A stretch of 49,774 nucleotides of DNA, from assembly GCA_003022125.1 (NCBI GenBank), contig PXQH01000043.1:1-49774 (forward strand), in the 5' to 3' direction. Both the position numbers and the translations under genes were made by a program. Origin of the DNA: Cyanobacteria bacterium QS_8_64_29. Its GTDB lineage: Bacteria > Cyanobacteriota > Cyanobacteriia > Cyanobacteriales > Rubidibacteraceae. A model generated the notes under the pieces. The model saw nothing but the letters and a program-made list of their open reading frames with translations. It was not told the DNA's origin and ran no database searches. Numbering within the stretch: the first letter of the stretch is position 1; every line of letters starts with the position of its first letter. Positions 306 to 43,656 of this stretch are shown here, piece by piece.

Positions 306-1458
306 CCTGATAGGAATTTCTCCATGAAACCCGGTGAAGGGTCGCTTCTTGATGTTGGAAAAAGAGCCAGGCGATGGGGAAAAAAGTAAGATAGCTATTA
401 TAAGTCTCAAGGCTAACTAATTTTAGGGCTTTGTGTTGGTTGGCAGCTAATCGTTCGTACCAGGCACGAATTGTCGGTTTATAATCGTCGAGGGAGTCGT
501 GGGTGATTTTGAAGCCTGCGCGGTTGGCTGCTTCAAGATGTTTGTGATGTAAGACAAGCATCGATCCGGGAAAGAAAATTTGCAGCGCGAGCGCGCTTAC
601 CGGATAAGGTTCCTTATTAAAGGAGAAAAACTGATGTACTGCTATTCCCCCTGGTGTTAAAGCCTCGTAAATTTTACGATAAAGTCCATACAACTCCTGG
701 GGTCGGACATGCTCTAAGGCGCCGATGGAGAAGATGCGATCATAGCTTCGATTGTCAAAAGAATCAGTCACGAAATTCTTGAGCTTGACATCAAGGTTCA
801 GCTCCTGCTGAGCATATGCCAGTTGCTCTTTAGCAAGAGTGAGTCCGCATAACTTACCTTGATGGCCCGAATCTCGAAGGAATTTTAGCATTGCCCCCCA
901 ACCACAGCCTAAATCTACAGCAGTCATAGACCACATGTGAACGGAGCTAGCTTGTTGGGCAAAACTTTGGGATCCTCTCAAATGGGGATCGAAGCTTTCA
1001 GACACAAGCCCACTCGTCTGTTCACTATCCATGTGTTTTTGCTATAGAATTTTCTCTTGTCCACTGAGATTTAAAAGCTTACGCAGGTATTCCACTTTGT
1101 TTGCTTGTGCTTGTTCTAGAGTATCTTTTTCGCTGAGAAATCGGGCACAGGTATAAAAACGATATTGGGCATCGAGAAAAAGGGCGTAAAAATCATTGGA
1201 AACATCGTAGTGGGCTTCAATTCCAACTGCATGATCTGGCTTTAACATTTCATCAATATATGCCTTGCGCTTTGACTCTGAAGGATACCTTTTCGCAAAG
1301 TTCTCCAACCAAGTCGGTTTCGGGTTTTTCCAAAATTGCCAATTCTTAACGGGATCCAAAGGAAAAGGAGTCTGGATTCGGTATTGCGCGATTGCGTACA
1401 GCAATCCCCTATCGATGAAATCCGAAACAAGTTTTGAGAATCTTGCTAGTTGCACCAT
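277..1458 (-). pseudogene. Cyclopropane-fatty-acid-synthase-type SAM methyltransferase, split by a short insertion element
   Basis: Two minus-strand reading frames in the same phase form one methyltransferase. 1458-1042 (138 aa) holds the family's HYDVSNDFYALFLD stretch and ends at ...SGQEKIL followed by TAG. 1032-277 (251 aa) resumes with DLGCGWG (SAM-binding motif I), then FSIGALEHV and a proline/glycine turn LTPGG. Between IL and DLG lies a 127-bp element plus a duplicated TA. Deleting 129 bases joins EKIL directly to DLGCGWG, the normal family arrangement. Because 129 is a multiple of three, the only in-frame stop is the TAG at 1042-1044, and the element offers a new ATG at 1032. The C-terminus runs into a second repeat at about 304. 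The region is visibly more AT-rich than its neighbours, which suggests acquisition. The original enzyme would methylate a lipid double bond or similar substrate. The present halves are probably inactive unless the TAG is read through or the downstream half is re-initiated. Confidence 0.8.
918..1044 (-). mobile_element. MITE-like element (family 1), copy 1, inside methyltransferase gene
   Basis: This 127-bp element is flanked by TA on both sides (916-917 and 1045-1046). Read on the minus strand it begins TAGCAAAAACACATGG and ends CACATGTGGTCTATGACTGCTG, so its two ends are imperfect inverted repeats: TATAGCA..CACATG..GTGAAC against TACAGCA..CACATG.TGAAC. A second copy, about 85 per cent identical by eye, is at 42501-42628. 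The host gene is restored exactly if element plus one TA is removed, so this is an insertion. TA duplication is typical of IS630/Tc1-mariner-mobilised elements; that assignment is an inference. No transposase is encoded. On this strand the element is open from an ATG at 1032 to its end, fusing 39 codons to the downstream methyltransferase half. Confidence 0.8.
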
Positions 1459-40343: not shown

Positions 40344-42512
40344 CTAGCCGCGCTCCTGCACGCTACGGGCGGCCTCGAGCGCCATCTCGCACAGGATCTG
40401 GTGGCTGCTTTGGGCGCGATCGGTGGAGGGAGGCTGGCGCTGCTGGTAGCTGCCATCGGACTGCAGCTCCCAAGCCTGGCAGTTGTCGGCCAGCATGATG
40501 CCCAGAATTTCGGCCAGCTCTTGCTGAATGTTGGCATCCAAAACTGGGGTCACGGCTTCCACGCGCCGGTCGAGGTTGCGCTGCATCCAATCAGCGCTGC
40601 CCAGGTAGTACTCGCTCTCGCCAGCGTTGTAAAAGTAAAAAATGCGCGAGTGTTCCAAAAAGCGCCCGACAATACTAATGACGCGGATGTTGTCGCTGAC
40701 GCCTTCTACCCCCGGGCGCAGGCAGCAGATGCCGCGCACGATCAAATCGATGCTGACCCCGGCGCACGAGGCCCCGTAGAGGGCGGCAATAATTTGGGGA
40801 TCCACCAGCGCATTCATCTTGGCGACAATGCGCCCCGACCCCCCATTGCGGCAGTTTTGCGCCTCGCGCTGGATTAGGGCGACCATGCGATCGCGCAAGT
40901 TCACCGGCGCCACCAATAGCTGGCGGTACGCCCGCTGGTGCGAGTAACCGGTGAGGTAGTTGAACAGGTCGGTGAGATCGGCCCCCAACTCCGTCCGGCA
41001 GCTGAGAATGCCCAAATCCGTGTAGAGGCCAGCGGTTTTGGGGTTGTAGTTGCCCGTGCCGATGTGGAAGTAGCGGCGGATGCGATCCGACTCGCGCCGG
41101 ACCACCAGGGCAACTTTGGTGTGGGTTTTGAGCCCCACCAGCCCGTAGATGACGTGGACGCCTGCCTGCTCGAGCTTGCGCGCCCAGATGATGTTGTTTT
41201 CCTCATCGAAGCGCGCCCGCAGCTCGACCAGGACCGCGACTTGCTTGCCCCGCTCGGCCGCTCGGATTAAGGCATTGACAATCGCCGAGTCCCCCGAGGT
41301 GCGGTAGAGCGTCATTTTGATGGCCAGCACCTGGGGGTCCTCGACCGCTTCTTGGATGAAGCGCTGCACGGTCGTTCTAAAGTCGTGGTAAGGGGGATGG
41401 ATTAGCAAGTCCCCCGCGCGAATGACCGAAAAGATATCCTGGCCGACCTCTAGCCGCCGTTGGGGGTCGTCCTCGCTGAGGGAGTCGCTAGCACTGGACT
41501 GCGCGCGCTCGGTGCGCTGCAAGCGAGGCGGCGTTACCGGCGTCCAGGGGGCATCTTTGAGCTGGGGCAGCGGCAGCTCTGCCAGCGACATCAGATCGTT
41601 CAAGCCCAGCAGGCCGTCGAGTTCGTAGACATCGCCCTGGGCCAAGCCCAGCTCGCGCATCAGCATGTTGCGGACGTTGGTTGGGGTGGAGGCATGCAGC
41701 TCCATCCGCACGGCCGAGCCGCCACGGCGCCGCTTGCACAGCTCCTGCTCGATCGCCAGCATGAGGTCGTCGGCCTCGTCCTCTTCGACGGTGAGGTCGG
41801 CGTTGCGGGTAATGCGGAACGGGTAGCACTCCTGCACCTGCATTCCGGGGAACAACGACTCCAGGTTGTGGGCAATCGCCTGCTCGAGCGGGACCCCCGT
41901 CCAGACCGAGACGGACTGCTCCGGGTCTTGGGGCGAGTGACCCAACTCCTCGGGGAGCTGGATGAAGCGCGGCAGCACCTTGGGGACCTTGATGCGCGCG
42001 AACAGCTCCTGGTCCGTCTCGGGCGAGCGCACCACTACTGCCAGGTTCAAGCTCAGGTTGGAGATGTAGGGGAAGGGGTGACTGGGATCCACCGCTAGCG
42101 GCGTGAGCACCGGGAAGATCTGCTCTTCAAAAAACGCTTGCAAGTAACTGCGCTGCTCCTGGTGCAGGTCCACATAGTCGATCAGGTGGATGCCTTCCGA
42201 GGCCAGCTGCAGCCGCAGGTTGTACTCAAAGTGCTGGTCCTGCTGCTCCACGGTGGGATGCAGACGCTCTCTGATCGCCTCGAGCTGCTGCGACGGCGTC
42301 CGCCCGTCGGGCGTCAGCTGGGTAACGCCTGCCTCCACCTGCTGCTTGAGCCCGGCCACGCGCACCATGAAAAACTCATCCAAATTGGAGCTAAAAATGG
42401 CCATAAATTTGAGGCGCTCTAGCAGCGGAGTGCGCGAATCGAGTGCCTCGTGCAGAACGCGCTCGTTAAAGGCTAGCCAACTCAGCTCCCGGTTGAAGTA
42501 TAGCAAAAACAC
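40344..42512 (-). CDS. ppk: Polyphosphate kinase with an element-supplied 5' end
   Basis: 722 aa. It polymerises the ATP gamma-phosphate into polyphosphate. YFNRELSWLAFNERVLHEAL, FSSNLDEFFMVRVAGLKQQ, FPVLTPLAVDPSHPFPYISNLSLNL and the phospho-histidine region YFHIGTGNYNPKTA are diagnostic. The N-terminus is odd: the gene now starts at GTG 42512, inside a short mobile element, giving VFLL before YFNRELSW. Beyond the element, the minus strand from ATG 42684 reads MTVSLTSQSLPKLRDPQY, the canonical beginning that would run straight into YFNRELSW. The insertion (element plus TA, 130 bases) also shifts frame, so translation from the old start ends at a TGA inside the element. Catalytic domains are intact, so activity is possible if GTG 42512 is used; no clear ribosome site precedes it. 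Confidence 0.93.
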   Translation of the reverse strand: MFLLYFNRELSWLAFNERVLHEALDSRTPLLERLKFMAIFSSNLDEFFMVRVAGLKQQVEAGVTQLTPDGRTPSQQLEAIRERLHPTVEQQDQHFEYNLRLQLASEGIHLIDYVDLHQEQRSYLQAFFEEQIFPVLTPLAVDPSHPFPYISNLSLNLAVVVRSPETDQELFARIKVPKVLPRFIQLPEELGHSPQDPEQSVSVWTGVPLEQAIAHNLESLFPGMQVQECYPFRITRNADLTVEEDEADDLMLAIEQELCKRRRGGSAVRMELHASTPTNVRNMLMRELGLAQGDVYELDGLLGLNDLMSLAELPLPQLKDAPWTPVTPPRLQRTERAQSSASDSLSEDDPQRRLEVGQDIFSVIRAGDLLIHPPYHDFRTTVQRFIQEAVEDPQVLAIKMTLYRTSGDSAIVNALIRAAERGKQVAVLVELRARFDEENNIIWARKLEQAGVHVIYGLVGLKTHTKVALVVRRESDRIRRYFHIGTGNYNPKTAGLYTDLGILSCRTELGADLTDLFNYLTGYSHQRAYRQLLVAPVNLRDRMVALIQREAQNCRNGGSGRIVAKMNALVDPQIIAALYGASCAGVSIDLIVRGICCLRPGVEGVSDNIRVISIVGRFLEHSRIFYFYNAGESEYYLGSADWMQRNLDRRVEAVTPVLDANIQQELAEILGIMLADNCQAWELQSDGSYQQRQPPSTDRAQSSHQILCEMALEAARSVQERG

Positions 42513-42628
42513 ATGGATCGTGAACAGATAAGTGGGCTTGTCTCTGAGAGCTTCAACTCCTAGTTCGAGAGAGCCCCAGAGTTTTGCCCAACAAGCTAGC
42601 TCCGTTCACATGTGGTCTACGACTACTA
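42501..42628 (+). mobile_element. MITE-like element (family 1), copy 2, inserted in the 5' end of ppk
   Basis: 128 bp, flanked by TA (42499-42500 and 42629-42630), about 85 per cent identical to the minus strand of 918-1044. Both share TAGCAAAAACACATGG at one end and the block CAACAAGCTAGCTCCG near the other. The other end reads GTCTACGACTACTA. Relative to copy 1 it has one extra base and a TAG in what was the open frame. It is oriented opposite to its host gene, whereas copy 1 is in the same orientation as its host. Confidence 0.82.
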
Positions 42629-42830
42629 TAGTACTGGGGGTCGCGCAGCTTGGGGAGGGATTGCGAGGTGAGCGAAACGGTCATAGCGCACCAGCGGTAG
42701 CAGCTAGTTGCCCATCTAGTGTAGTGCGGACGTTTTTTGTTAACTTGATAGAAGCCAATGCTGCCGCGATCGCGGCGTGTCCGCCGATCGCCGGCGTTGC
42801 GCTTGGCAGGACGCGTTCGGGTAAAAAAAC
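42629..42830. other. Stranded original ppk start and sodN leader region
   Basis: 42631-42684 (minus strand) is the displaced first 18 codons of ppk, with ATG at 42684. The rest, 42685-42830, is the intergenic leader of sodN. It contains the T-rich GTTTTTTGTTAACTTGATAG (42733-42752 region) and one HIP1-like GCGATCGC. I see no small gene or RNA in it. Promoter elements for sodN and, formerly, ppk must lie here. Confidence 0.7.
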
Positions 42831-43307
42831 ATGCTCAAGCAAGCAATCGCTCAGGTCAAAGCTTGGTTCCCGGCTCCGGCGGCAAGCGCCCACTGCGACG
42901 GGCCTTGCGGCGTCTACGATCCGGCTTCCGCACGCATCGCGGCTGAGGCGGTCGTCTCGCTAACCAACAAGCTACTCAACCTGGAGCCGCCGCAGGGCAA
43001 CGACCAGCGCTCGCTGGTGGACTACCACAATACCATGTCGCGCTTCATCAAAATTAAGGAAGAGCAAGCCGAGATCGCCAAGCGCGAGCTGCTGATCCTG
43101 TGGACGGACTACTTCAAGCCCCATCACCTCGAGCAGTATCCCGACCTGCACGACAAAGTGTGGAAGGCTACCAAGCTCTGCTCCACCTGCAAGCAGCAAG
43201 TGGATCTCGATAGCGCCAATCAGCTCATGAGCTACGTCAAAGAGATCCACGACATCTTCTGGACCACCAAGGAGCGCAGCGACGTCGTCTGGTACAAGGC
43301 CAGCTAA
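42831..43307 (+). CDS. sodN: Nickel-containing superoxide dismutase
   Basis: 158 aa. It dismutates superoxide using nickel held by the N-terminal hook. The precursor has a 20-residue leader (MLKQAIAQVKAWFPAPAASA) before His21-Cys22-Asp-Gly-Pro-Cys26-Gly-Val-Tyr, the diagnostic HCDGPCGVYDP hook; removal of the leader exposes His1. The rest is the four-helix bundle (SRFIKIKEEQAEIAKRELLILWTDYF and so on). The maturation protease gene follows at 43351. NiSOD instead of or beside FeSOD suits marine or saline cyanobacteria that economise on iron. Confidence 0.96.
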   Translation: MLKQAIAQVKAWFPAPAASAHCDGPCGVYDPASARIAAEAVVSLTNKLLNLEPPQGNDQRSLVDYHNTMSRFIKIKEEQAEIAKRELLILWTDYFKPHHLEQYPDLHDKVWKATKLCSTCKQQVDLDSANQLMSYVKEIHDIFWTTKERSDVVWYKAS

Positions 43308-43350: not shown

Positions 43351-43656
43351 TTGTTGCGGCGCCGGCGGCGCTTTCGCGTCGCCGGCCATTCAATGGCGCC
43401 GCTGCTGCAGCCCGGCGAAGAAATCCTCGTTGACCCCCAAGCCTACCGGCAGGCCGAACCGGCCGTGGGGGATCTGGTGCTAGTGCAGCACCCCCAGCGG
43501 GAGGGGCTGCAGCTGCTCAAGCGCGTGACGGCCGTGCAGTCCGATGGGGACTGCTTCGTTGAGGGCGAGAACCCGGCGCACAGCACCGACAGCCGCACCT
43601 TCGGCTGGATTCCGCCCGGCTGCCTGCTCGGTCGCATTACCAGCCGCTTTGCGTAA
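43351..43656 (+). CDS. sodX: Nickel-type superoxide dismutase maturation protease (S26 signal-peptidase-like)
   Basis: 101 aa from TTG 43351. The catalytic serine is in VAGHSMAPLLQPGEEILVD and the lysine in LQLLKRVTAV. EGENPAHSTDSRTFGWIP is the usual S26 box E. It cleaves the SodN leader before His21. The start is uncertain: codons just upstream in frame (SYGELLLW) also resemble the family's N-terminus, yet no ATG, GTG or TTG is available there back to an in-frame stop at 43228. A CTG start or the TTG must therefore be used. It follows sodN by 43 bases. Its 3' 177 bases are covered by the antisense tail of the nuclease frame. Confidence 0.88.
   Translation: MLRRRRRFRVAGHSMAPLLQPGEEILVDPQAYRQAEPAVGDLVLVQHPQREGLQLLKRVTAVQSDGDCFVEGENPAHSTDSRTFGWIPPGCLLGRITSRFA

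Follow-up and report, generated by a model that had tools for sequence, protein, structure and literature searches.

ISY100 of Synechocystis, an element of the IS630/Tc1 type, targets TA dinucleotides and carries 24-bp imperfect repeats (PMC2170065). For the cyanobacterial MITE Nezha (Zhou et al. 2008, cited in PMC3049150), mobilisation by ISNpu3-like elements has been proposed. PMC3049150 also describes RUP of Streptococcus pneumoniae, which is 107 bp long and has ends like those of IS630-Spn1. Rickettsia palindromic elements (RPEs) are short palindromic mobile elements found inside coding genes (PMC3733652).

Here we describe a short element in the ppk gene of Cyanobacteria bacterium QS_8_64_29, a cyanobacterium related to salt-loving species. 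The gene lies in a stretch of 49,774 nucleotides (contig PXQH01000043.1), which is called the window below. The element resembles IS630/Tc1-mariner elements such as ISY100 in its TA target, its TA duplication and its imperfect end repeats of ~24-27 bp (PMC2170065); in addition, an IS630-type transposase with matching ends is present in a relative, and such ends are present in its own genome. Unlike ISY100, the ppk element has no transposase, and the likeness of the ends is one of description rather than letter by letter. Like Nezha, to which it was likewise compared by description only, it is a short non-coding cyanobacterial element with end repeats attributed to an insertion sequence with like ends. 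It shares with RUP the character of an IS630-type MITE that also disrupts genes, but the hosts are unrelated, and the available sections of PMC3049150 mention no RUP copy that hands a start codon to a housekeeping enzyme. It is also, like the RPEs, a short palindromic mobile element within a coding gene. Whereas RPEs are in-frame inserts, insertion of the ppk copy causes a frameshift and introduces a stop, which sets it apart from them; the only in-frame member of its family is a copy in a transposase gene (C16). MITE insertion is an ordinary event that has here occurred in an unusual place. Events of this kind are known, and neither the family nor the ppk site was found described in the literature.

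On the minus strand, ATG 42684 is followed by MTVSLTSQSLPKLRDPQY, by a 128-bp segment with a TA on each side (132 bp counting both), and then by TACTTCAACCGG, which encodes the YFNR of the Ppk motif YFNRELSW (Table 1). The insertion point is the TA of the Tyr codon directly after ppk codon 18, and excising the element together with one TA gives DPQYYFNRELSW, in which DPQY is again joined to YFNRELSW. The original prediction of a 128-bp inverted-repeat element after codon 18 was borne out in its coordinates, its TGA and the shared frame of GTG-TTT-TTG-CTA. Its claim that removal of the element and one TA rejoins YFNRELSW exactly also holds, and relatives show the empty site. The net gain at ppk is 130 bp, with a TGA inside the element; this shifts the frame, so that ppk is split into a leader ORF and a body ORF.

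Table 1. Positions of the element, the split ppk gene and other copies of the family. Plain coordinates refer to the window; those with an L prefix refer to other loci of the same genome.
Feature	Position	Strand	Basis
MITE copy in ppk, TATAG...CTATA, including both TA target duplications, 132 bp	42499..42630	.	multi-copy family in own genome, 25-copy alignment, empty site in relatives
Terminal inverted repeat, A-end TATAGCAAAAACACATGGATCGTGAAC	42499..42525	+	genome end searches, copy alignment, IS end comparison
Terminal inverted repeat, B-end TATAGTAGTCGTAGACCACATGTGAAC	42604..42630	-	genome end searches, copy alignment, IS end comparison
TA target duplication, ppk-body side	42499..42500	.	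direct reading
TA target duplication, old-start side	42629..42630	.	direct reading
Old ppk start, now 43-codon leader ORF, ATG 42684 to TGA 42555-42553 within the element	42553..42684	-	reading, ATG position in relatives
ppk body ORF, 722 codons from GTG 42512 within the element	40344..42512	-	ORF reading, domain profiles, PDB comparison
GTG, the sole standard start keeping all of YFNRELSW besides TTG 42506	42510..42512	-	reading of start regions
Second copy in window, in a cyclopropane-fatty-acid-synthase-like (CMAS-type methyltransferase) gene on the minus strand, between KI and LDLGCGWG	916..1046	.	DNA match, joining test
Copy C1 in pilT, 61 C-terminal codons cut off	L210:1017-1147		joining test
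Copy C27 in pilQ-type secretin gene	L220:1153-1284		joining test
Copy C23 in HEPN gene			joining test
Copy C16, 131 bp, in IS630-like transposase gene	L232:169-299		joining test
Copy C25, 78-bp variant, in another DDE transposase gene			joining test

The two 27-bp ends of the ppk copy are identical at 14 of 27 positions, a value equalled by 0.5% of letter shuffles. A repeat finder run at default settings reported no inverted repeat in the element and just a 9-bp arm was seen, because the inverted repeats are imperfect and the full ends were therefore missed. Folded alone, the element is predicted to form a hairpin of -45.2 kcal/mol (z -3.3), for which no supporting covariation was found. No Rfam family matches the stretch 42400-42900, and the plasmid collection contains no match to the inserted segment. 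The element has no coding capacity, and a transposase gene is absent from it.

Copies were located by DNA-similarity and end-pattern searches of the organism's own genome (2.22 Mb in 69 contigs, G+C 65%). The DNA search with the segment returned 22 matches including itself, and the best of the 21 others is 95% identical to the ppk copy across all 132 bp (E 7.5e-56). The end pattern TATAG-N15..17-GTGAAC occurs at 54 sites in this genome, mostly paired. Two-ended copies number 25, ppk included, with partial ones in addition, and they are scattered over many unrelated sites; two more are in the relative G001, the only one of 39 related genomes searched in which the MITE is present. In an alignment of 23 of the 25 own-genome copies with the two from G001, identity to the ppk copy is 60-96%. 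The length is 129-132 bp in full copies and 78 bp in one variant. Their outer TATAG/CTATA and GTGAAC/GTTCAC are near-invariant, with TATAG-N16-GTGAAC at both ends in most copies, and the middle is variable. Terminal inverted repeats at two ends, TA duplication, a length below ~300 bp with no transposase, and multiple copies together identify the element as a MITE, and judged from its letters the family is a non-coding, TA-flanked one of IS630/Tc1 type. At one locus (C2, L211:1187-1448) two copies, 95% and 79% like the ppk copy, stand end to end and share one TA, an arrangement expected when a copy inserts into the TA of one already present. Three one-ended copies (L214:1022, L222:1011, L223:1056) have no B-end: they break off ~35 bp short of it, and two of the three do so at the same base (..TATCGCTG).

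The ends of the ppk element match IS630-type ends of its own genome, the A-end at 19-20 of 27 positions. Those ends are located at the ends of contigs C26, C42 and C22 (TATAGCAATCACAACTTACACGTGAAC) and C45 (TATAGCAGAACAACTTTACTCGTGAAC), and behind them lie the last (..NPIEKVWLRGKETMRKLAGLCPSFERVKALF..) and first (MDQTITHTVKLLELFINDKPSAEELKRALAVKLSWEGY) codons of a transposase-like protein. A search of these short fragments alone against Pfam gave no match. In G001 a whole 1137-bp insertion sequence with such ends is present; its frame is broken, and it encodes HTH and DDE_3 domains, the make-up of IS630-family transposases. The fragment on C45 and the beginning of the G001 transposase share 61% identity. 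In its own genome the IS630-type element is represented by its ends, with the body missing from the assembly, most likely through collapse of near-identical copies. The ppk MITE was probably mobilised by the IS630-family transposase of such a matching insertion sequence.

A search of 40 genomes, own genome included, detected Ppk in 38, and further ppk loci were taken from GTDB contigs, with a few loci present in both collections and so counted twice. Of the 67 readable ppk start regions, 45 place the ATG precisely 18 codons ahead of YFNRELSW, as is the case for ATG 42684 once the flanks are joined, and 63 have it 10-35 codons before the motif. The insertion site is a conserved Tyr-Tyr pair, TA(T/C)TA(T/C), which offers TA targets. 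Relatives share these codons without interruption; in G001, for example, MTKAKTAATEINLDDPQY runs directly into YFNRELSW. The element was in none of the relatives' ppk genes read, and in no relative does the segment form an ancestral ppk leader, in agreement with the original prediction.

Seven genes, ppk included, regain their frame when the element and one TA are removed. The copy in the IS630-like transposase gene is a net insert of 129 bp that is in frame and open throughout, adding 43 codons. The intact flanks suggest that the MITE family was active fairly recently. The breaks in pilT and the pilQ-type gene suggest that this cyanobacterium, whose genome is small, may have lost type IV pilus function.

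The ppk gene is single-copy, with no second copy found in its own genome. Its 722-codon ORF contains neither a stop nor a frameshift and encodes complete PP_kinase_N, middle, C1 and C2 domains, which places it in Ppk1. The PP_kinase_N profile is matched end to end (positions 1 to 107) at ORF residues 5-111. In a solved Ppk in the PDB, LYIEKELSW is found at chain residue 2, and since this chain starts just before the motif, the long N-terminal arm appears dispensable. By these comparisons the predicted loss is limited to the poorly conserved N-terminal arm, and no conserved Ppk residue is removed. A functional protein from the 722-codon ORF is plausible because every domain is kept and solved chains start just before a YFNRELSW-type motif.

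Where translation of the body would begin is constrained by its start region. The candidates are GTG 42512 (MFLLYFNR), which shares its frame with YFNRELSW through GTG-TTT-TTG-CTA, TTG 42506, and an ATG ~35-40 codons in, use of which would drop conserved sequence. Upstream of GTG 42512 the in-frame stop is TGA 42608-42606, with no other ATG, GTG or TTG in between, and no obvious ribosome-binding site precedes the GTG. The original prediction that the element supplies the ppk start is partly supported, in that the old start is cut off and GTG 42512 is the sole standard option besides TTG 42506 that keeps the whole conserved region; formally, a start at this GTG is what the letters best suggest. 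In the predicted transcript fold, GTG 42512 lies in the right paired arm of the element hairpin, with a mean unpaired probability of 0.22 over 30 nt, compared with 0.42 around the old ATG 42684 in the same fold. This position in a predicted paired arm argues for weak or coupled initiation.

We consider it somewhat probable that an IS630/Tc1-type MITE split the single ppk1 and that synthesis of near-full-length Ppk (MFLLYFNRELSW...) continues, in reduced amount, from GTG 42512. A non-autonomous MITE would have inserted at the TA after codon 18, and translation of the leader ORF would unfold the left arm of the element hairpin; having terminated at TGA 42555-42553, the ribosomes would re-initiate downstream at GTG 42512, yielding near-full-length Ppk at a lowered dose. 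Such coupled, lowered translation is favoured because the leader ends within the element, 78 nt in, and would thus open the left arm, with the GTG only 40 nt beyond the stop. Simple inactivation of ppk is nearly as likely as reduced translation. By this account, taken alone a substantial possibility, the promoter and start have been separated from a body that is not usefully translated, and the intact frame reflects nothing more than a recent insertion. It is a strong rival because copies also interrupt pilT, pilQ, the CMAS-type and HEPN genes and two transposases; as frames are intact on both sides of these broken genes, an unbroken ppk body does not prove that the gene works. The burial of GTG 42512 in the predicted hairpin points the same way, whereas the retention of every conserved Ppk residue, an in-frame start right at the join and 722 codons free of stops and frameshifts speak against inactivation.

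Ribosome hopping was examined because all interrupted genes rejoin exactly. Recovery of the ppk frame could proceed by -1 slippage on the TTTTT that follows ATG 42514 (M-C-F-L-L-YFNR) or by a bypass from TAT at the left TA to TAC at the right one, giving the ancestral DPQYYFNRELSW, and is highly improbable. ATG 42514 does overlap GTG 42512 with the T5 run next to it, and Tyr is encoded at both copies of the duplicated TA in ppk and pilT (TAT to TAC), with the element in the same orientation and a stable predicted hairpin between the two codons. However, the other in-gene copies occur in both orientations and all three codon phases, their take-off and landing codons are mismatched (CTA/GTA in the CMAS-type gene, CTA/ATA in pilQ, ACT/TAT in the HEPN gene), and the hairpin has neither covariation nor an Rfam match. 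Bypass or frameshifting as a general explanation was rejected, since the orientation, phase and codons of the seven in-gene copies do not fit it. The bolder proposal, that in-gene copies are tolerated as tRNA-Tyr hops from TAT to TAC over the hairpin in ppk and pilT and that the MITE is a mobile bypass element, is barely credible. The byp sequences of some yeast mitochondria are comparable bypass elements. An artefact, with the element misjoined in assembly or present in part of the sampled population, is very unlikely. The assembly is a draft, with copies at or close to the ends of several contigs, but a chimera is improbable because the flanks are two parts of a single ppk that fit together exactly at one TA, and the ppk copy has private differences, being 95.5% identical to its nearest copies. 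A native origin of the segment as a long-standing ppk leader, with no insertion at all, can be dismissed almost entirely: relatives lack the segment and have their ATG at -18 (45/67) or between -10 and -35 (63/67), and copies elsewhere in the genome refute it.

With empty sites in all relatives read, the locus clearly illustrates the takeover of a conserved single-copy enzyme's start by a short mobile element, and it allows one to ask whether a split gene can be rescued by translation of a leader ORF. Polyphosphate metabolism would be predicted to be altered in the organism.

Both ends of the element resemble outward-facing sigma-70 promoters, with GTTCAC-16-TATA plus flank at 42605-42632 (+) and 42524-42497 (-). 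The latter (TTCACG-16-TATACT, with TG before) is directed toward ppk and was rejected as the source of near-full Ppk because its transcript start would fall past GTG 42512. The (+) site (10/12) points at the divergently oriented gene for nickel superoxide dismutase (42831-43307); after this gene comes an ORF resembling a signal peptidase (43351-43656).
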